Origin: Bacillota bacterium
GTDB taxonomy: Bacteria; Bacillota; Limnochordia; Limnochordales; DUMU01
Assembly (NCBI GenBank): GCA_012839805.1
Contig: DUMU01000016.1
Location: forward strand, 27,131 to 91,130
Length of the DNA stretch: 64,000 nucleotides
Direction of reading: 5' to 3'
The translations under genes were made by a program, and so were the position numbers. The notes under the pieces are model-generated. The model searched no databases. It worked only from the letters and a program-made list of their open reading frames with translations, and was not told where the DNA came from. Positions 928-10,538 of this stretch are shown piece by piece (the first letter of the stretch is position 1; each line of letters starts with the position of its first letter).

Positions 928-2253
928 CTACTTGATGATACCGTAGTGCTTGTTGTAACGGTCCAGAACCTGCTGGGCCTTCCTGGCCGACTCTTCCAGA
1001 GCTGCCTGGACAGCCGCCTCGTGACGCAGTGACCTCCACCAAGCATCCCACAGGTAGCCCTCTATAGACGGGTAGGCCGGATGCGGCGGACGGATGTGGG
1101 CAAACTCCATCGCCTGGATGAAAACCCGCCGGACCGGATCCTGTACCAGCTGCTTGTTGACTGCTGCCTGGACGTTGGCGGGGATGACACCCGTCCCCAG
1201 GGCAAAGCGCACCTGCGTCTCCGGGCTTACGAAGTAGCGGATAAACTCCAGAGCTGCCTTCACCCTCGCAGCAGGGGTACCGGCCGGGATGACCAACCCA
1301 TGTCCCCCCGAAAGGGTGGCCCGCTTTACTTTGAGAGGCGGGAGGCCCGCGCCCAGATCGTTCTGATAGATGTCGGGGAAGTTCCTCAACACCTCGCCGA
1401 GAGTCCACGAACCTTCGTAGAGAATAGCCACCTGGCCTTTCAGCATCGGCCCCAGCGGACCGCCGATGCTCCAGTCAACCTGCCCGCCGAAGGCGTCGAT
1501 TGCCCCCAGACCCCCGTAAAAGTCGGCGAACTCGACGACCCATTGGATCGCCTCGACCGCCGCCTGGGAGTCCCAGACCACCTTCGTTAGCTCAGGGTTT
1601 AGGAGCTCTCCGCCGTTTTGCCAGATGTAGTCCTTGGCCGAGATATTGCCCCAGGTCGGCACATATCCGGCCCTGGTCAGTTTACCGTCCGCCTGCCGCC
1701 GGGTCAGCTTCACGGAAGCCTGCCGGAGCTCGTCCCAGGTGTCCGGCGGGTTCTCCGCGCTGATCCCGGCCTCCTCGAGGACCGATTTCAGGAACAACAA
1801 CACCCGCGAGTCGGTCTGAGTGGGAATACCGTACTGGGCCCCTCTCCAGTTTGCCTCCCGCCAGGTGGCGGGAAAGAAGGTCGACGGCTGGAGGAGCTTG
1901 TCCCCCTTGATCAGGTCGTCAAGACGAGTAAGGGCCCCGTTGGCGGCAAACTCGTTGGTAGTGTACCGGTCGAGTAAGACTACATCCGGTGCCGCGCCAC
2001 CTGCCACCGCCGCCATCAGCTTCTGCCCCAGGCTGGTGGTGAGTACCACCTTGACTTCTACATCTTGTTGACTCTTGTTGAACGCGTTGACGAGCGACCC
2101 GATCACCTCGCCTCCTTCACCACCCCAGTCGTGCCAGAAAGTGATGGTGGTCTTGGCGAAGCCCGGTACCCCCGGTATGAGCACAAGCAACACCACGAAG
2201 AGCAGGCCAGCGAGCTTACGCATGCTTGCCATTGCGCACCTCTCCTTCCACAT
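928..2253 (-). CDS. Carbohydrate ABC transporter extracellular substrate-binding protein (family 1)
   Basis: Signal peptide followed by TTITFWHDWGGEGGEVIGSLVNAFNKSQQDVEVKVV...GGAAPDVVLLDRY; true start probably an internal Met. Confidence 0.85.
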   Translation of the reverse strand: MWKERCAMASMRKLAGLLFVVLLVLIPGVPGFAKTTITFWHDWGGEGGEVIGSLVNAFNKSQQDVEVKVVLTTSLGQKLMAAVAGGAAPDVVLLDRYTTNEFAANGALTRLDDLIKGDKLLQPSTFFPATWREANWRGAQYGIPTQTDSRVLLFLKSVLEEAGISAENPPDTWDELRQASVKLTRRQADGKLTRAGYVPTWGNISAKDYIWQNGGELLNPELTKVVWDSQAAVEAIQWVVEFADFYGGLGAIDAFGGQVDWSIGGPLGPMLKGQVAILYEGSWTLGEVLRNFPDIYQNDLGAGLPPLKVKRATLSGGHGLVIPAGTPAARVKAALEFIRYFVSPETQVRFALGTGVIPANVQAAVNKQLVQDPVRRVFIQAMEFAHIRPPHPAYPSIEGYLWDAWWRSLRHEAAVQAALEESARKAQQVLDRYNKHYGIIK

Positions 2254-2266
2254 GCTACTCCTGCCG

Positions 2267-3562
2267 TTATTCCGCCTCCGGAAGACCGAGCGAGATCGCG
2301 AAAACGTGGATGTTCGGGTTGTCCGGCAGGGTTATGGAAGTCACCGTCTTCGCGGGGTCGAGGTTCCACCAGAGCCGGAAGAGCCGGCAGGCCGGACCGC
2401 TCTTGCCCTTGCGGTCGTAGCGATACGGCATCTCTATCGCCACTCCCTCACCATAGTCAGGGCCGCCGCACCAGTCGCTGACCATAAGATCAACAACCTG
2501 GGTGCTCCCGTCCGCATAGTTGATGGCCAACTTGCTCCGCTGGCCACCGTTGTGCGCCAATGCCAGCATGTACAGCGCATGGTACTGGCCGGCCGGGATC
2601 TTGAGCTCTTGGCCTCTCGCCTCGATGTTGTTCAGCTTTCCGTCCGTGTAATCCGGCATCTGGAAGTCAACGCCGGCCAGCTTGCTTACTTTCCCAGACG
2701 GCGGCATGACCTCCGCCGCCAGGCTCCATCCAACGTTGTCGAGATTCCCGTCGCTGGGGTTAGCGGCCGTAGAGATACCATCCTGGTTGAACGCGCTGCT
2801 GATATCGACCTGCTTCACGGCGACCGGAGGCTGGAAGAGCGGCGCGGCCGCCACCTGCAGGAGGCCCGGCTTCTTGCCCAGAGACAGGGCAAAAAGATGG
2901 ATGTTAACCTCCTCGCCGAACTCGATCCTGGTCAGTTCCTTCTGGGGGTCAACCGCCAGCTTGGTGGCGAAGATCGTTACCTTCAGGTTCTGCTTCCCCT
3001 CGGGCCCGTACCGTCCCGTCATCTGCACCGCCGCGACCTCATGCGGCTTGGCCTCCCCGCACCAATCGCTCACTCGCAGCTCCGACTGGCCGGTGCTGCC
3101 GTCCGCATAGACGAAAGTCACATCTGCCTTCTTCGAACCGTTGGTGGCGGTGGCGAGGAAATACACATCGTAGTACCTTCCAGGAAGCACGTCGATCCTC
3201 TGCCCCAGCAGCTGAACATTATTCTCGACGAACGGCTCGGTAAGAGTCTCGGGGACTCGGAAAGAGACCCCATCAACCTTGATGATGCTGCCAGAAGCCG
3301 GCATTTCCTCGGCCACGAGTGACCAGCCTAACCCGTCTAGATCTCCGTCGATCGGATCGTCAGCCGTGGCCACGCCGTCGTTGTTGTAAAGCCGCGACAG
3401 GTCGACCATGACTACGTCCTCGACAGCCTGGTCCGCCGCCTTCACAGCTCGCGTCGACATCACCACCATCGCCCCGCCAGCCAGAGTCAGGACCAGGAGT
3501 GCTATCAACGTCATACTGGCAACAAACCCGGTTTGCCTCTTCATTCCAGCATCTCCTCCCAA
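2267..3562 (-). CDS. Secreted/membrane-anchored protein with two tandem copies of a galactose-binding-like module
   Basis: N-terminal hydrophobic segment; two internal repeats (VDLSRLYNNDGVATADDPIDGDLDGLGWSLVAEEMPASG / VDISSAFNQDGISTAANPSDGNLDNVGWSLAAEVMPPSG). Confidence 0.7.
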   Translation of the reverse strand: MGGDAGMKRQTGFVASMTLIALLVLTLAGGAMVVMSTRAVKAADQAVEDVVMVDLSRLYNNDGVATADDPIDGDLDGLGWSLVAEEMPASGSIIKVDGVSFRVPETLTEPFVENNVQLLGQRIDVLPGRYYDVYFLATATNGSKKADVTFVYADGSTGQSELRVSDWCGEAKPHEVAAVQMTGRYGPEGKQNLKVTIFATKLAVDPQKELTRIEFGEEVNIHLFALSLGKKPGLLQVAAAPLFQPPVAVKQVDISSAFNQDGISTAANPSDGNLDNVGWSLAAEVMPPSGKVSKLAGVDFQMPDYTDGKLNNIEARGQELKIPAGQYHALYMLALAHNGGQRSKLAINYADGSTQVVDLMVSDWCGGPDYGEGVAIEMPYRYDRKGKSGPACRLFRLWWNLDPAKTVTSITLPDNPNIHVFAISLGLPEAE

Positions 3563-3592: not shown

Positions 3593-6487
3593 CTACTGGC
3601 AACCCCATAGCCACGTAGCAATCTCTTGCGGACGTGCCTGCCACTGCACCCCCTTTCCTTCAGCCAGCTTGGTGAACCCCCTCTCGACCTTTTGGAGCAA
3701 CCCGTTCACGGGGTAGACCTCGGGCTGCGAAGGCGAGGGGGCGATTTGCCAGACGATCTCGGCTCCGGCCTCCTTGCCCAAGGCTTCCACGGCCCGAACC
3801 ACCACTTTCTCCCCAAAGCGGCGGACCGCTGTGACTATCAGATTGGCACTGGTCTGCAGGAAACTTGCCAGAGTGCTCCCTCGCGTCGATCCGGGTAAGG
3901 GCTCTCCCCAAACCGCAATGAGCGGTTCGTTGTATTCCCACGCCTGTCGGTCGACCCGAGCTTCCTGCCAGGTTCCCGAGTGGGGGAAGAGCGCGTACTC
4001 GAAACGGTGGGAGCCGATACCAAGTGCCTGTGGTGAGTCACCATGACGGAAAAAGGTGTAATCGATGCTTCGTAGAAGGGTCAGCCGGTAGCTGCCCCCG
4101 TAGACTTCGTGATCGGGCAGCCCCCGGTTGAGCAGGCTCACTCCTCCGGTTTCCGCACTCGAAGTATCGACCCACTTTACCGCCGGCCATTGCCCCGGCG
4201 ACCGTCCGGTGATGAATCCATACGGAATCTCAAAGGTCGTCTCTCCCCGCCCGGTGGTCGGCATGGTCACTTGTACGACCTTCTTTTTGTCCCGCCAATC
4301 CATGGAGGTAATGAACTCGATTCGTCCCGGTCGCTCTGGAAGGTCGATCTCACGAACGATGACCGCCTGAGGTAACTCGGTCCGATGGATGACCCGCGTC
4401 ATCACCGGTCCCGCCAGCACCCGTGCGGTAGACGGTTGCCCCACGGTCGAGGCGACCAGATGGCTGTTGCCGTCGGGGAAATAGGCGTTGCTTTCGTCGG
4501 TAGCAATGCGAATGCCGTTCCCTCTTACCGGCTCGCTCCATGAGGTGGCCGGAATCTCCTTGATCCATGTGCGATCCGGCTCCGACTCCGAGCTGAGCTC
4601 ACGAATGTTGCCACCTTCGTCCATGACCAGGCGGTAAGCAGCGGTAGTAACCAGTGTGTCTCCCTGCTCGTTTGGCTCGAGGTTGACCTCCTTTTCTTCC
4701 GGTGAACGGGCCGGGGCATGTCCCCATTCCAGCGAGTAGATGCGATAGCCGGCTGCCGGCACGCTGGCTACGAAGGCAATCTCCCAGCCATCCTCGCCTG
4801 CGGCACTTGTTTCGCCGCCGTCGATACCAGCCCGGTCGGCCGCCCCATAGGTACCGGGCGCGAGAGGGGCCCATGCCGTGGTGAGCGATCGGGCGCCAAA
4901 GGCGTCCCGATATTGGCCTACCGGCTGCAGGATCTGGTAGGGGACTTCATTGCCCCGATCGTCCAAAAGCCGAAAGAGCGTCGGCGAAGCGCCCTGTGAA
5001 GCGCCCTGTACCGCTGGTATGCGCAGCCGTACTATCTCCTGGCGGTCCCAGTTCAGCGGGTTGAAAAGAAGCAGGCGGGTCGGCCGGGACGTCTCGCTCG
5101 GATCGACGCCTGCATACCGGGCCAGGCTAATCACGGCCTTACCCGCTATCTCTTGAACGGCAGTTTCCACCTTCTCGTAGCGCTGCTCCATCCGGTCGTA
5201 GACCCCGTCCACGGCAGTCGCCGGAAGGAGGTCATGGAACTGATTGAGCGCTAACGCCGTCCAGGCCTGGGTGAGCTCCGGCTCAGGGTATGTGTAAGCC
5301 GGGTCGAGGAGCGAGGCAAAGGTAGCCAGACGTTCAGCCACCATGAGCTGGTGCTCGGCGGCTCGGTTCCGCTGCTTGATCCAGATGCGAGCGCTGTAGT
5401 AACCCGGGAAGACACGGTTTGACTCTGCGGCAAACTCCGGAATCTTCACGCCGTTGGCCTCCGCGCGCCGGACCGCCGCGAAGAAATCGGCCAGCGTGGC
5501 CACATTCATCTTGACATCCGTGTGCCGCGCGTTCCAGTCCTTCGCCAGACGGACCAGTTCGGAAGGAGGTGCAGCATAATCGCCACCCACCGGGATCAGA
5601 ACGTTGGGGGTTGCGGCGTAGGGGCGCAGTTGCCGGTAAATGTCCATGATCTTGGCCTGTTCTTTGGCGATATTGCTCGAACGGCCAAGAGCTTGTGCCA
5701 CATCATATCCTTTGACCATCCAGGCAGCAAGTACCCTCGAACCATCCGGGGCGACCCACCAGAACTCCGACGCGGGCGGTTTCTGCTCGTCCCCCGCCCG
5801 GGCGAAAGCGAACTCCTCCATGCCACCCGCGCGCAGGATTTGGGGCATCTGCCAGGAGTGGCCGAAAGAATCGATGTCGAAACCGCTGCGGCTGTAAAGG
5901 CCGAAAGTTTCTTTTAGATACCTTTGACCTAGAACTGCTTCTTGCAGGAGCGTTTCACCCTCCGGCAGGTTTTCATCGGGTTGGATGTAAAGACCGCCTA
6001 CTAGCTGGGCACGCCCCTCTTTGACCAGTTGCCCGAGACTATCGGCCTCGATGGGGTAACTAAATAAGAAGGTCTGGAGTGCTGGAACCTGGTCGAGCAC
6101 AAAGCGATACCCGGCCTCGTCCAGAGCCTGACTGACGTGATCTCGGTATCTTTCCGCAATCCGACCGGCCGTGGCAAACTCTGGTTCAAGCCAGGCCACA
6201 TCGTAGTGCGAATGGGGAACGAGCCAGATCGTGCCCTCCGTGCCGTAACTGAATGTATCTTCCACCCCAGTTTCGCCCTCCGCCGCTCCCTGTACGCAGA
6301 CCGCTGCCCGCAGTCCCCCTGCCAGTACCACTCCCATGCCGAGTAGTACGAGTAGCGCGCTCCGCCTGCCGCCCCCGCAACGCAAGCCAGTCCCTCCCCG
6401 TTCTGCATCTAGTTCAATTGATTCGCTCTTCCGGCAGGAACTCCTGCCGGCGCGTAAAAGTTTCTTCAGAGGCTGTGCCAACCTCAT
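3593..6487 (-). CDS. Glycoside hydrolase family 38 alpha-mannosidase, predicted secreted
   Basis: WLVPHSHYDVAWLEPEFATAGR, GFDIDSFGHSWQMPQIL; SD GAAGGAAA before ATG at 6487 (track ORF extends to 6544). Confidence 0.85.
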   Translation of the reverse strand: MRLAQPLKKLLRAGRSSCRKSESIELDAERGGTGLRCGGGRRSALLVLLGMGVVLAGGLRAAVCVQGAAEGETGVEDTFSYGTEGTIWLVPHSHYDVAWLEPEFATAGRIAERYRDHVSQALDEAGYRFVLDQVPALQTFLFSYPIEADSLGQLVKEGRAQLVGGLYIQPDENLPEGETLLQEAVLGQRYLKETFGLYSRSGFDIDSFGHSWQMPQILRAGGMEEFAFARAGDEQKPPASEFWWVAPDGSRVLAAWMVKGYDVAQALGRSSNIAKEQAKIMDIYRQLRPYAATPNVLIPVGGDYAAPPSELVRLAKDWNARHTDVKMNVATLADFFAAVRRAEANGVKIPEFAAESNRVFPGYYSARIWIKQRNRAAEHQLMVAERLATFASLLDPAYTYPEPELTQAWTALALNQFHDLLPATAVDGVYDRMEQRYEKVETAVQEIAGKAVISLARYAGVDPSETSRPTRLLLFNPLNWDRQEIVRLRIPAVQGASQGASPTLFRLLDDRGNEVPYQILQPVGQYRDAFGARSLTTAWAPLAPGTYGAADRAGIDGGETSAAGEDGWEIAFVASVPAAGYRIYSLEWGHAPARSPEEKEVNLEPNEQGDTLVTTAAYRLVMDEGGNIRELSSESEPDRTWIKEIPATSWSEPVRGNGIRIATDESNAYFPDGNSHLVASTVGQPSTARVLAGPVMTRVIHRTELPQAVIVREIDLPERPGRIEFITSMDWRDKKKVVQVTMPTTGRGETTFEIPYGFITGRSPGQWPAVKWVDTSSAETGGVSLLNRGLPDHEVYGGSYRLTLLRSIDYTFFRHGDSPQALGIGSHRFEYALFPHSGTWQEARVDRQAWEYNEPLIAVWGEPLPGSTRGSTLASFLQTSANLIVTAVRRFGEKVVVRAVEALGKEAGAEIVWQIAPSPSQPEVYPVNGLLQKVERGFTKLAEGKGVQWQARPQEIATWLWGCQ

Positions 6488-6631
6488 TAGATTTCCTTCA
6501 TTGTTCTCTTGGGCAGGGTCTCCTCCCCAACCGGCAACCGCCAACGTATGCGAAGAAAGACGCGAAACGGTGGCCTGGATTGCCAGAGCGGGTATGATGA
6601 AGTAGAGTAAGGCAAGAGGTGGATATTTTTC

Positions 6632-9352
6632 ATGGAGCCGGCTTTCAAGCCTCGTTGGGACGAGTTGGACGAACGGATACTGCAGCTTTTACGAACCAAC
6701 GGCAAAATGCCTCTAGCCGACATCGCGATGGCCACCGGCATAGCGATGAGCACGGTGTCCAATCGCATCAAACGGCTGGTGGAAGCCGGAGTTCTGCAGG
6801 GATATCGCGTCGTTGTCGATCCCCGGTTCTCGGTAGCGGGGGTAGAGGCAATCGTAACCATTACCGCACCCTCGCCCAACGGTCTGCAGCTGGTCCTGCA
6901 GGAGCTCGAGGCAACCGGAGTACTGATCAGCGAGGTCTACCGGACGCTGGGTTCGGCCGAGTATGTATGCCGGGTCGTCGCGCCCACCGTCGAGAGCCTG
7001 GATCGAGCCGTTGCCCTGGCCGATCGCCATGAGGGCAGCACGGTCAACGTCTTCATCCTGGCCGAGAGCATGGGGCCAGGGCTTTCGTCCGGGAAGGGCG
7101 GGCCGGCACCCGCTGAGCCGGGACCGGCGAGAACCACCCGGGCCTTGGCGCCCGGCTCCCGGCTCTATTTCGTCAGTCTCACGGAGATCGACCCCGACCG
7201 TATCTCGCCCGAACGCATCGTCCAGACCCTGGCACAAGCCGGGTTTACCACTTTGGTCGTCGACGCCGTCAATCCCTGGGGAGCGTACTACGGGAGCCGG
7301 CGAGTCCCGCTTTCGCCTCACTGCCACGGGCAGGACCTGCTGGCCGCGTTCTGCGAAGCGGCGATGAAGCAGAAAGTAGAGATCCTGGCCGCCGTGGAAT
7401 GCCGGGCCCTGCCGCCTTTCCTCGCCGCCGAGCACCCGCGCTGGCTCCAGCGGCAGGCGAGCGGAGAAGCCTTGATTGCCTACGGCCCGTTTTACCGGGG
7501 TTGTTTTCGGAACGGCTGGCAGGAGTGGTTACGCTCCGTGGCCAAGGAGCTACTGGAAAAGTACCCTCTGGGGGGGCTGGTGGCTCTCAACCCCGAGTAC
7601 GACCCGGCCAGCTGTTACTGCGAGACCTGCCAGAATGGTTTCCGGGCTCAAAAGGGGGTTCACTTGCCCAGGGAAGGAGAGGCGGCCGACCACCCCACCT
7701 GGTGGCGCTGGCTCAAATGGAAGGTAGAATCGGTCAACCAGTTCGTCGAGTCGCTGGCGGATCTGGTTCACCAGGCGACTCCGGCCGGTCGCCTGTTGGT
7801 CATGAGCGACCAGGCGCTGGCGGAACGCCCGCAGACTTACGGGGTGGCGCTCGCCGATCTCGCGACCCGATGCGATGGTGTGATCTCCGCCGGTGAACCG
7901 GGCAAGCGTCTGGCCGCGCCGCTCCTCGATGTCCTGGATCGCTGGGATCGGGGTGCAGCCCAGGCCCCTGTCATTGGCACCTTTGCCGCGTCACTTTCGG
8001 CCTCGTACGCACCGTGGACCTACTACCCGGTCGCTCCCGGACGGCTTGAACTGGGAGTAGAGTTGCTCGCGGCCGCCGGGCAAAACATCGCCTGCCTCGA
8101 CCTGGGCAAACTGGACGAACTGCAGTTTCCTGCCCGCCAGGCCGGGCCTGGAGAAGAACCAGCTCGTGGAGGCCGAGCCGGTGACCTCTTACCTGTCGCT
8201 CGGGAGCCGCTGTGGCACTATACGGCCCTCCTCTACTCCGAGCAAGATTGGTGTTCCCCCCAGGGCCGAGCCGCTGAACCCTCCCATGCTCGCTGTTTCA
8301 GCGGGCTGTATCGCGCCCTCACCGGAGCCAACATCCCGTTTCGGGTGATTAGCCTCGAACATGCGGCGAGCGACCCGGTTCTGCAGAAGACGCTCGAATC
8401 TTTCCACACTGTAATCCTTCCGGCTTTGAACCAGCTTCCAACCAGCTTCGTGCGCTGGCTCCGGCGATACGCCGAACGAGGGGGTGGGGTGCTGGTAACC
8501 TACCCCGGGGTACTGGCCGACCGTCAAAGCGAAGCCGCTCCCCTCCTGCTGGATCTCCTGGGGCTTTCCCGGGTCGATCAGCCCCAGACGGCGGAGGCCG
8601 CCTACTTCTGGCTTCAGCCTCAGGGTCTGTCCGGCGTGGCCGGCGCCGCCGCTGCCACAGGAGCCGCCGCTACCGCTGCCGTCGCGGCCGCCCCAGACGG
8701 CACTGCGGGGGGATTTGCCGCGACGGGTTCAGCGGGTACGGCCGACGGCCCCGACCTGCACGGGCTTCCCGGCGTCTTGCCCGCTTACTCTCGCTGGTTA
8801 CCGGTGGACCCGGGGCGCGCTCGGGTCTGCGGGCACATTCTCGCGCAGGAGAGCGCCTGGGGAGGGGTTTCCCGTACCGGCTATCCGGCCCTGGTGGCGC
8901 ATGAGCTTGGTTCGGGGGCGAACTCCGGACGCACCCTCCTTTTTACCTACCCGCTGGGAGCTTTGTATGGGAGCTTTCCCGACCCGACACTGGAAACACT
9001 GCTCGTCCGCTCGGTGGCCTGGGCTGCCCGGCGTCCGTCACCACTCATGGTCTCCGGCGAACGACCGCTGGTCGTCCGGGTGACCGCCGCCCCCGATTCG
9101 CGGCAAGTCTACGCTCATGTGACCGATGCCGAGACGGTTTTCACCACCCGGCCCTGGCTTGAACCGCCCCCTCTCCCGTCCGGTTTCATCGACCTCGAGC
9201 TTGACCGGCCGCCTCAAGAAGGAGTTTGGCTTCCATCAGGTGAAAAGGCGTCGTGGAGTAAGGTCGGGCCAGTTTCGGCCGGCCCCGACCGTTACCGTTT
9301 TCCACTTCCTAAGAGTCGCGGTCGAGCCCTGCTGGTCTTGACCCTGAGCTAG
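6632..9352 (+). CDS. AsnC/Lrp-type HTH regulator fused to a glycoside-hydrolase-like TIM barrel (GHL6-like) and a beta-galactosidase-trimerisation-like domain
   Basis: N-term DELDERILQLLRTNGKMPLADIAMATGIAMSTVSNRIKRLVEAGVLQGYRVVVDP is AsnC HTH plus RAM-like; then LYFVSLTEIDPDRISPERIVQTLAQAGFTTLVVDAVNPWG...CYCETCQNGF barrel; then GATase-like FHTVILPALNQLPTSFVRWLRRYAERGGGVLVTYPG. Confidence 0.75.
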   Translation: MEPAFKPRWDELDERILQLLRTNGKMPLADIAMATGIAMSTVSNRIKRLVEAGVLQGYRVVVDPRFSVAGVEAIVTITAPSPNGLQLVLQELEATGVLISEVYRTLGSAEYVCRVVAPTVESLDRAVALADRHEGSTVNVFILAESMGPGLSSGKGGPAPAEPGPARTTRALAPGSRLYFVSLTEIDPDRISPERIVQTLAQAGFTTLVVDAVNPWGAYYGSRRVPLSPHCHGQDLLAAFCEAAMKQKVEILAAVECRALPPFLAAEHPRWLQRQASGEALIAYGPFYRGCFRNGWQEWLRSVAKELLEKYPLGGLVALNPEYDPASCYCETCQNGFRAQKGVHLPREGEAADHPTWWRWLKWKVESVNQFVESLADLVHQATPAGRLLVMSDQALAERPQTYGVALADLATRCDGVISAGEPGKRLAAPLLDVLDRWDRGAAQAPVIGTFAASLSASYAPWTYYPVAPGRLELGVELLAAAGQNIACLDLGKLDELQFPARQAGPGEEPARGGRAGDLLPVAREPLWHYTALLYSEQDWCSPQGRAAEPSHARCFSGLYRALTGANIPFRVISLEHAASDPVLQKTLESFHTVILPALNQLPTSFVRWLRRYAERGGGVLVTYPGVLADRQSEAAPLLLDLLGLSRVDQPQTAEAAYFWLQPQGLSGVAGAAAATGAAATAAVAAAPDGTAGGFAATGSAGTADGPDLHGLPGVLPAYSRWLPVDPGRARVCGHILAQESAWGGVSRTGYPALVAHELGSGANSGRTLLFTYPLGALYGSFPDPTLETLLVRSVAWAARRPSPLMVSGERPLVVRVTAAPDSRQVYAHVTDAETVFTTRPWLEPPPLPSGFIDLELDRPPQEGVWLPSGEKASWSKVGPVSAGPDRYRFPLPKSRGRALLVLTLS

Positions 9353-9536: not shown

Positions 9537-10538
9537 GTGCGGTTGAAGGATGTCGCCGGCCAGCTGGGGCTTGCCCCCTCCACCGTCTCCCGGGCGCTCA
9601 ACCATCCGGAGATGGTGGCCGCCGAGACCCGGATTCGCGTCTTGGAGGCCGTGCAAAAAGCCCGTTACCAGCCGGATCGCATCGCTCGGAGCCTGCGCAT
9701 CCGGCAAACCTCAACCATCGGGCTGATTGTATCCGACATCCTCAACCCTTTCCATGCCGAGCTGGCTCGCACCGTAGAACAAGCGGCCCGCCAGCGGGGT
9801 TACACGGTTATCTTCGGAAACAGTAACGAGGAAGAAGAGCAAGAACGCGATTACCTCGAGACCTTCGTGTCCAGCAGGGTTTCGGGCATCATACTTGCTC
9901 CGTCTGGCAATAGCTCCGAAACGTTACGCCGGATGGTCGACCAGGGCATCGTGGTGGTACAGGTGGACCGCCTTACTCCCGGGTTGGAGGCGGACGCCGT
10001 GCTCCTTGACAACTCGCGAGGGGCTTCCCTGGCCGTGACGCACCTCATTGACCTGGGCCACCGGCGAATCGGCATGATTGCCGGGCCACAACACCTCACC
10101 ACCGGAAAAGAAAGACTCGAGGGTTACAAGTCGACGCTTCTCGCCGCCGGGCTCCCCTACAACCCCGACCTCGTCTACGTGGGCAACTTTCGAGAGAGCG
10201 GGGGGTATGAGGGAACACGGGCGCTCCTGTCATTGCCCGACCCGCCCACCGCCATTCTCACCGCCAACAGCGAGATGGCCGCCGGCGCGGTCCGTGCCCT
10301 TCGGGAAGCCAACCTTGTCATCGGCAAGGACATCTCTCTCGTCACTTTCGATGATACCCGGTGGGCCCAATACATGCTCCCGCCCCTTACGGTAGTCGCT
10401 CAACCCGTGGAAGAGATCGGGCGCACCGCCGTGGACGTCCTTTTCCGGCGTCTTGAACGGCGTACTTCCCGTTCCACCATCTACACCTTGCAGCCCTATC
10501 TGATAGAACGCGCCTCGACCGGCCGGCCACCCCGGTAG
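9537..10538 (+). CDS. LacI family transcriptional regulator
   Basis: MRLKDVAGQLGLAPSTVSRALNHPEMVAAETRIRVLEA (LacI HTH) plus periplasmic-binding-like domain; GTG start with SD AAAGGAGCGG. Confidence 0.92.
   Translation: MRLKDVAGQLGLAPSTVSRALNHPEMVAAETRIRVLEAVQKARYQPDRIARSLRIRQTSTIGLIVSDILNPFHAELARTVEQAARQRGYTVIFGNSNEEEEQERDYLETFVSSRVSGIILAPSGNSSETLRRMVDQGIVVVQVDRLTPGLEADAVLLDNSRGASLAVTHLIDLGHRRIGMIAGPQHLTTGKERLEGYKSTLLAAGLPYNPDLVYVGNFRESGGYEGTRALLSLPDPPTAILTANSEMAAGAVRALREANLVIGKDISLVTFDDTRWAQYMLPPLTVVAQPVEEIGRTAVDVLFRRLERRTSRSTIYTLQPYLIERASTGRPPR

Follow-up and report, generated by a model that had tools for sequence, protein, structure and literature searches.

The window, that is, the whole stretch of 64,000 nucleotides analyzed in this work, embeds a single uninterrupted ORF (6632..9352, + strand) coding for a 906-aa fusion protein, in which an AsnC-type helix-turn-helix (HTH) and a RAM-like module are followed by a GHL6 barrel, a GH42M-like domain, and a beta-rich tail. 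This fusion is real, conserved, and, in the data searched, limited to one family. The reading that we favor, with a probability of about 0.58, is that of a cytoplasmic one-component regulator using a glycoside-hydrolase (GH) fold, probably non-catalytic, as the sugar sensor of the divergently transcribed operon; inferred in this reading are the binding to DNA, the operon targeted, the kind of ligand, whether the effect is positive or negative, and the loss of catalytic activity. We favor this reading because the AsnC HTH and the GHL6 barrel match within one chain; because two further genomes share this fusion, which carries the sole above-cut-off AsnC HTH in each of the three; because it is divergent from DUF and solute-binding-protein genes in all three and from a GH38 gene in two; because the barrel model has a GH fold and the nucleophile Asp is replaced; and because parallel HTH–hydrolase fusions exist in the same genomes. 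Against it stand three intergenic regions sharing no operator motif, two glutamates (E322 or E422) that might still support chemistry, and structure models whose confidence is low to medium (pLDDT 45 and 60).

Domain architecture and conservation of the fusion

The ORF is preceded by a Shine-Dalgarno-like AAGAGGTGG (6614-6622), and its N-terminal Met falls at the same aligned place in all three orthologues. The winged HTH (aa 9-60; 6656..6811, +) matches the Pfam family HTH_AsnC-type (PF13404) at aa 10-49 with an E-value of 8.4e-11, above the curated cut-off, and a phmmer search of the PDB aligned aa 9-129 with solved AsnC/Lrp regulators (2cyy, E 3e-12). The GHL6/GH151-like (beta/alpha)8 barrel (aa 171-500; 7142..8131, +) was recognized by Pfam, by profiles, and by a structure model compared through Foldseek; its GHL6 match (PF14871, aa 193-316, E 6e-9) reaches 36.7 bits vs. 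a curated cut-off of 35, and GHL6 is above the cut-off in both orthologues as well. These data agree with the initial annotation, which had described an AsnC HTH followed by a GHL6-like barrel in one 906-aa chain, and contradict the objection considered there that a significant AsnC match might be lacking. With its HTH starting as early as aa 9, the protein has no signal peptide, and its barrel would be cytoplasmic, as had been proposed.

The RAM-like module (aa 61-148; 6812..7075, +) lies partly within the PDB match, which extends to aa 129, and AsnC_trans_reg, probed on aa 1-154 alone, gave an E-value of 0.00045 and 20.5 bits, under the cut-off of 25. The full-length AF2 model (three-row alignment, pLDDT 45), of low confidence and taken for secondary-structure order alone, places the RAM-fold elements in the order beta-alpha-beta-beta-alpha-beta at aa 71-145. 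Judging from sequence and model, the module appears to be real but divergent; of the "full" AsnC and RAM module previously described, the HTH part stands, and the RAM part appears to be present in a divergent form that remains under the Pfam cut-off. The presence of a RAM-like fold would also suit a different scenario, in which the true effector site is the RAM, sensing an amino acid as Lrp/AsnC proteins ordinarily do, the barrel being either a passenger or an oligomerization module. We consider this quite improbable, given the divergence of the RAM and its sub-cut-off score, its lower identity among the orthologues (about 60%) compared to the barrel (63-68%), and the glycan genes that surround the fusion.

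The C-terminal portion consists of a GH42 trimerization/GATase-like domain (aa 525-660; 8204..8611, +), detected by profiles and by a Glyco_hydro_42M match at aa 531-631 (E 6.9e-5, under its cut-off), and of a beta-rich tail (aa 716-906; 8777..9349, +) delimited by orthologue alignment and model; both had been correctly anticipated. Between them, a low-complexity Ala-rich insert (aa 661-715; 8612..8776, +), more precisely Ala/Gly-rich, is missing in both orthologues.

The initial annotation had suggested looking for the same fusion elsewhere, and whole-genome searches retrieved it as single open frames from G061 (same genus) and G060 (same family), both Limnochordaceae (MAG contigs JADBKP010000001 and JADBKQ010000006). 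The three fusions share 58-60% identity over the whole protein, with values of 75-79% for the HTH, 60-61% for the RAM, 30-39% for the variable linker (aa 149-170; 7076..7141, +), 63-68% for the barrel, 50-58% for the GATase-like domain, and 50-52% for the tail. Unlike the linker, the HTH and the barrel are conserved, which argues that both modules are selected; the two ends of the fusion are, as far as these alignments indicate, under purifying selection. The same pattern, found in two further genomes, speaks against an assembly artefact. Although the source genome of the window is in 51 contigs, the same continuous, stop-free frame at about 60% identity in three genomes makes an artefact or a missed stop a practically negligible explanation. 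A frameshift or missed stop between two genes, also envisaged at the outset, is ruled out by the single open frames of the two independent orthologues at 58-60% identity.

In principle, the HTH might be vestigial and the protein a plain cytoplasmic hydrolase, most of the chain length being GH-like. This is very hard to reconcile with an HTH that is the most conserved region of all (residues S40-T41-V42-S43-N44-R45-I46 are invariant in the three fusions) and with a divergent gene placement that is also conserved; we regard it as highly improbable.

Concerning its distribution, searches covering the other 11 genomes of the order, a further 59 from the class, and a phylum sample scored for at most two candidates per genome did not reveal the fusion. 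A scan of 84,980 species with the barrel profile and a pattern retrieved it only from the two Limnochordaceae MAGs. A single-protein query found no relatives; tblastn against plasmids yielded, among the matches listed, only unfused GHL6-like or AsnC sequences, none spanning 80% of the query; and viral contigs, used as a source for a deeper alignment, left no conserved stretch. In none of the three genomes does any protein other than the fusion have an AsnC HTH that exceeds the Pfam cut-off, and most other members of the order harbor AsnC HTHs in ordinary short frames.

The barrel and its putative active site

The barrel-only AF2 model (aa 168-505, three rows, pTM 0.67, mean pLDDT 60) consists of eight strands alternating with helices, and its top Foldseek matches in the PDB are GH-type barrels, namely Cwp19, PgaB, a GH164 beta-mannosidase, GH42, and GH151. 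Sequence profiles of the fusion reach 3tts (GH42) and 6tvk (GH151); the three fusions together with five close homologues match a GH151-like profile with a probability of 99.9 over 455 columns, across both the barrel and the Rossmann-like domain, and the three fusions alone with a probability of 97.5. On the strength of these profiles and of the model, the barrel can be grouped with GHL6/GH151/GH42-type proteins.

In GH151, the nucleophile is D154 and the acid/base is E235 (PMC10154630). The 6tvk chain numbering corresponds to the native one plus 29, an offset deduced from the agreement of these two residues, and under it D154 lies on the strand DGIFLD, which precedes the Cys cluster, and E235 lies within LELES. 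The nucleophile position is occupied by Asp in 11 out of 11 GH151-like homologues and in four nearer unfused ones (from G084, G003, G014, and G000-C42). None of the three fusions has it: the corresponding end of strand 4 (GLVALNPEYD, aa 315-324; 7574..7603, +) reads GLVALNPEYDP or GLVLLNPEYDP, which puts Leu (L319) at the nucleophile position in an ungapped alignment and Asn (N320) with a one-residue shift. Two HTH-free GHL6 proteins (L043 and L044) also carry Asn there; thus, Asn alone is no proof of inactivity. Taken as sequence evidence, the replacement of the Asp is suggestive of a loss of catalysis in the fusion barrel.

The CYCETC cluster (aa 328-333; 7613..7630, +), already noticed in the initial annotation, belongs with C291 to a Cys set (C291, C328, C330, and C333) invariant across all eight homologues in the alignment, whose identity is about 21%. 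The corresponding set of GH42 enzymes binds a structural zinc. As for the acid/base, the invariant E422 (7895..7897, +), which the alignment and the model put just after strand 6, may be the counterpart of E235, in a register that the profile alignments do not fix. In GH42, the nucleophile Glu sits on strand 7; the corresponding segment of the fusion, FAASLSASYAPW, has no acidic residue.

These residues bear on the alternative that the fusion is a trigger enzyme, whose barrel would be an active intracellular glycosidase, regulation depending on turnover, with the active site occupied or empty. Bifunctional regulators of the PutA or BirA type offer a precedent for it. The invariance of E322, D324, and E422 in the three fusions fits this possibility, as do the barrel being the best conserved region after the HTH and the Asp that the GHL10 barrels of other fusions of the same genomes retain on strand beta-4 (HLDYLRY). 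Nevertheless, the missing Asp at the GH151 nucleophile position and the lack of acidic residues in strand 7 make it rather unlikely. The idea of a one-component regulator with a hydrolase-derived sensor is supported by homology, orthologues, and synteny; of the two forms left open for that sensor, catalytic or degenerate, the absence of the nucleophile Asp favors the degenerate one, as far as alignments can tell.

Genomic context and proposed mechanism

The fusion gene is separated by a divergent intergenic region (6488..6631), the presumed operator, with one sigma-70-like match at 6580-6608 (+), from three genes on the opposite strand: a secreted GH38 alpha-mannosidase (3593..6487, -), the likely target according to neighbor annotation and synteny; an exported protein of 426 aa that consists of two repeated modules and matches no Pfam family (2267..3547, -); and a sugar-type ABC solute-binding protein (928..2253, -), the last two being syntenic in all three genomes. 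The exported two-module protein (2267-3547) possibly represents a new carbohydrate-binding family. Downstream lies a gene for a LacI-family regulator (9537..10538, +), a neighbor also in G060, and elsewhere the window harbors genes for GH116, L-fucose isomerase, DUF2961, and GH106- and GH127-type enzymes.

The divergence from the DUF and solute-binding-protein operon is found in three out of three genomes, and the operon products common to them share 55-65% identity. Regulators that act locally on a glycan locus are usually placed in this way. The window and G061 have the GH38 gene in between, whereas the G060 copy lacks it as a neighbor; the link to mannosides, for which GH38 is the one basis, is therefore weak. 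In the three intergenic regions, no shared operator motif was found, the best 12- and 16-mers being no better than those of shuffles.

Between GH38 and the fusion, the G061 locus contains further debris (L010:9295-10625), comprising an AsnC-HTH remnant with 55% identity to aa 11-39 of the fusion, two GH38 fragments, and a truncated solute-binding protein; these look like what is left of a decayed second copy of the cluster.

According to the regulator reading, the AsnC winged helix would bind an operator within 6488-6631, and the RAM-like module would build a dimer or a higher assembly. The GHL6/GH151-like barrel, the GH42M-like domain, and the beta tail would form the effector-sensing module, whose ligand might be a sugar or a small glycan from the substrate of the divergent GH38/DUF/solute-binding-protein operon. 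Ligand binding, with little or no hydrolysis, would switch the assembly between DNA-binding states, and this, in turn, would control the divergent operon and possibly the fusion gene itself.

Parallel fusions and comparison with known systems

The fusion is not isolated, since the same genomes harbor other fusions of DNA-binding domains with hydrolases. GHL6 searches of the relatives revealed, in all three family genomes, an XRE HTH (HTH_3, about 1e-9) joined to an F5/8-type C domain and a GHL10 barrel (L065:5579-7906, +; L069:5506-7803, -; L071:5920-8589, -), the GHL10 match in G000 being 3.8e-29. An HTH-free paralogue with the same domains directly adjoins this fusion and has, in G061 and G060, a hydrophobic, signal-like N-terminal segment; in G000, a solute-binding protein adjoins the locus. 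In G000, an ADP-ribosylglycohydrolase follows an XRE HTH related to this one. Loci with this arrangement are L098:3273-5327 (+) and L099:1808-3376 (-) with its upstream frame, and the gene at L099 has solute-binding-protein genes on either side. In G061, the matching open frame spans the HTH region, although the first-start ORF begins inside or after the HTH. Lastly, a 630-aa protein of G000 (L102:303-2195, +) combines an inosine-uridine nucleoside hydrolase, a cupin, and an AraC HTH.

The nearest unfused relatives of the AsnC barrel differ from the nearest relatives of the XRE barrel; hence, the AsnC and XRE fusions are independent. GHL6-like barrel matches number 15 in G000, 14 in G061, and 8 in G060, compared with 1-3 per genome in the rest of the order. 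Tentatively, and at somewhat short of even odds, Limnochordaceae may have repeatedly made cytoplasmic regulators out of hydrolases and a DNA-binding domain, the AsnC member being a bacterial glycosidase-pseudoenzyme sugar sensor. If so, a glycan locus could have as its sensor a paralogue of its own enzymes, and a glycan-degrading lineage would obtain one sensor per locus by copying an enzyme, dropping its secretion, and adding a DNA-binding domain. The ligand would then be predictable from the enzyme family, and such proteins would be a natural source of glycan-responsive biosensors.

The XRE–GHL10 proteins (L065, L069, and L071) resemble the AsnC fusion in joining a cytoplasmic HTH to a GH-like barrel near solute-binding and hydrolase genes; they differ in their HTH and barrel families, in the retained strand-4 Asp, and in the adjacent HTH-free paralogue. 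With the Lrp/AsnC family (PH1519, 2cyy) the fusion shares the winged HTH and, probably, a RAM-like module, but normal members are about 150 aa long and sense amino acids, whereas here about 750 GH-like residues follow. The GH151 alpha-L-fucosidase ALfuk2 (6TVK) and the GH42 beta-galactosidases have the same succession of barrel, Rossmann/trimerization domain, and beta domain, with the Cys cluster after strand 4; in contrast to them, the fusion (about 20% identity) lacks the nucleophile Asp and has gained an N-terminal HTH-RAM. In MocR, ROK, BirA, and PutA, a DNA-binding domain is likewise combined with an enzyme, or former enzyme, as sensor; to our knowledge, none of them has a glycoside-hydrolase barrel.

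In the literature searched, no sensor fusion of AsnC, or of another bacterial DNA-binding domain, with a glycoside hydrolase was found. The initial statement that no example had been described was nonetheless too strong, since two GH-fold sensors are on record. RsgI6-GH10 of Clostridium thermocellum has a GH module that shows very low activity and has been proposed to sense polysaccharides for the control of glycan genes (PMC4711584); it is bacterial and uses a GH module as sensor, as proposed here, but that sensor is extracytoplasmic and belongs to a transmembrane anti-sigma factor without a DNA-binding domain. In the plant proteins BZR1-BAM7 and BZR1-BAM8, a BZR1 DNA-binding domain lies, as in the fusion, N-terminal to a GH barrel, in that case a GH14 beta-amylase fold; one catalytic residue is poorly conserved and another is kept, and the activator function of BAM8 needs a predicted ligand-binding residue and not residual catalysis (PMC6394054). 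These are nuclear plant proteins with BZR1 and GH14 folds, neither half sharing common ancestry with the fusion; as an analogy, BZR1-BAM8 is the closest working model for it. If the regulator reading is correct, the plant beta-amylase transcription factors would have in the fusion a soluble bacterial counterpart. The idea of a GH-fold sensor thus already has its analogues in BZR1-BAM7/8 and RsgI6-GH10, to which the fusion would add an enzyme-derived one-component regulator.
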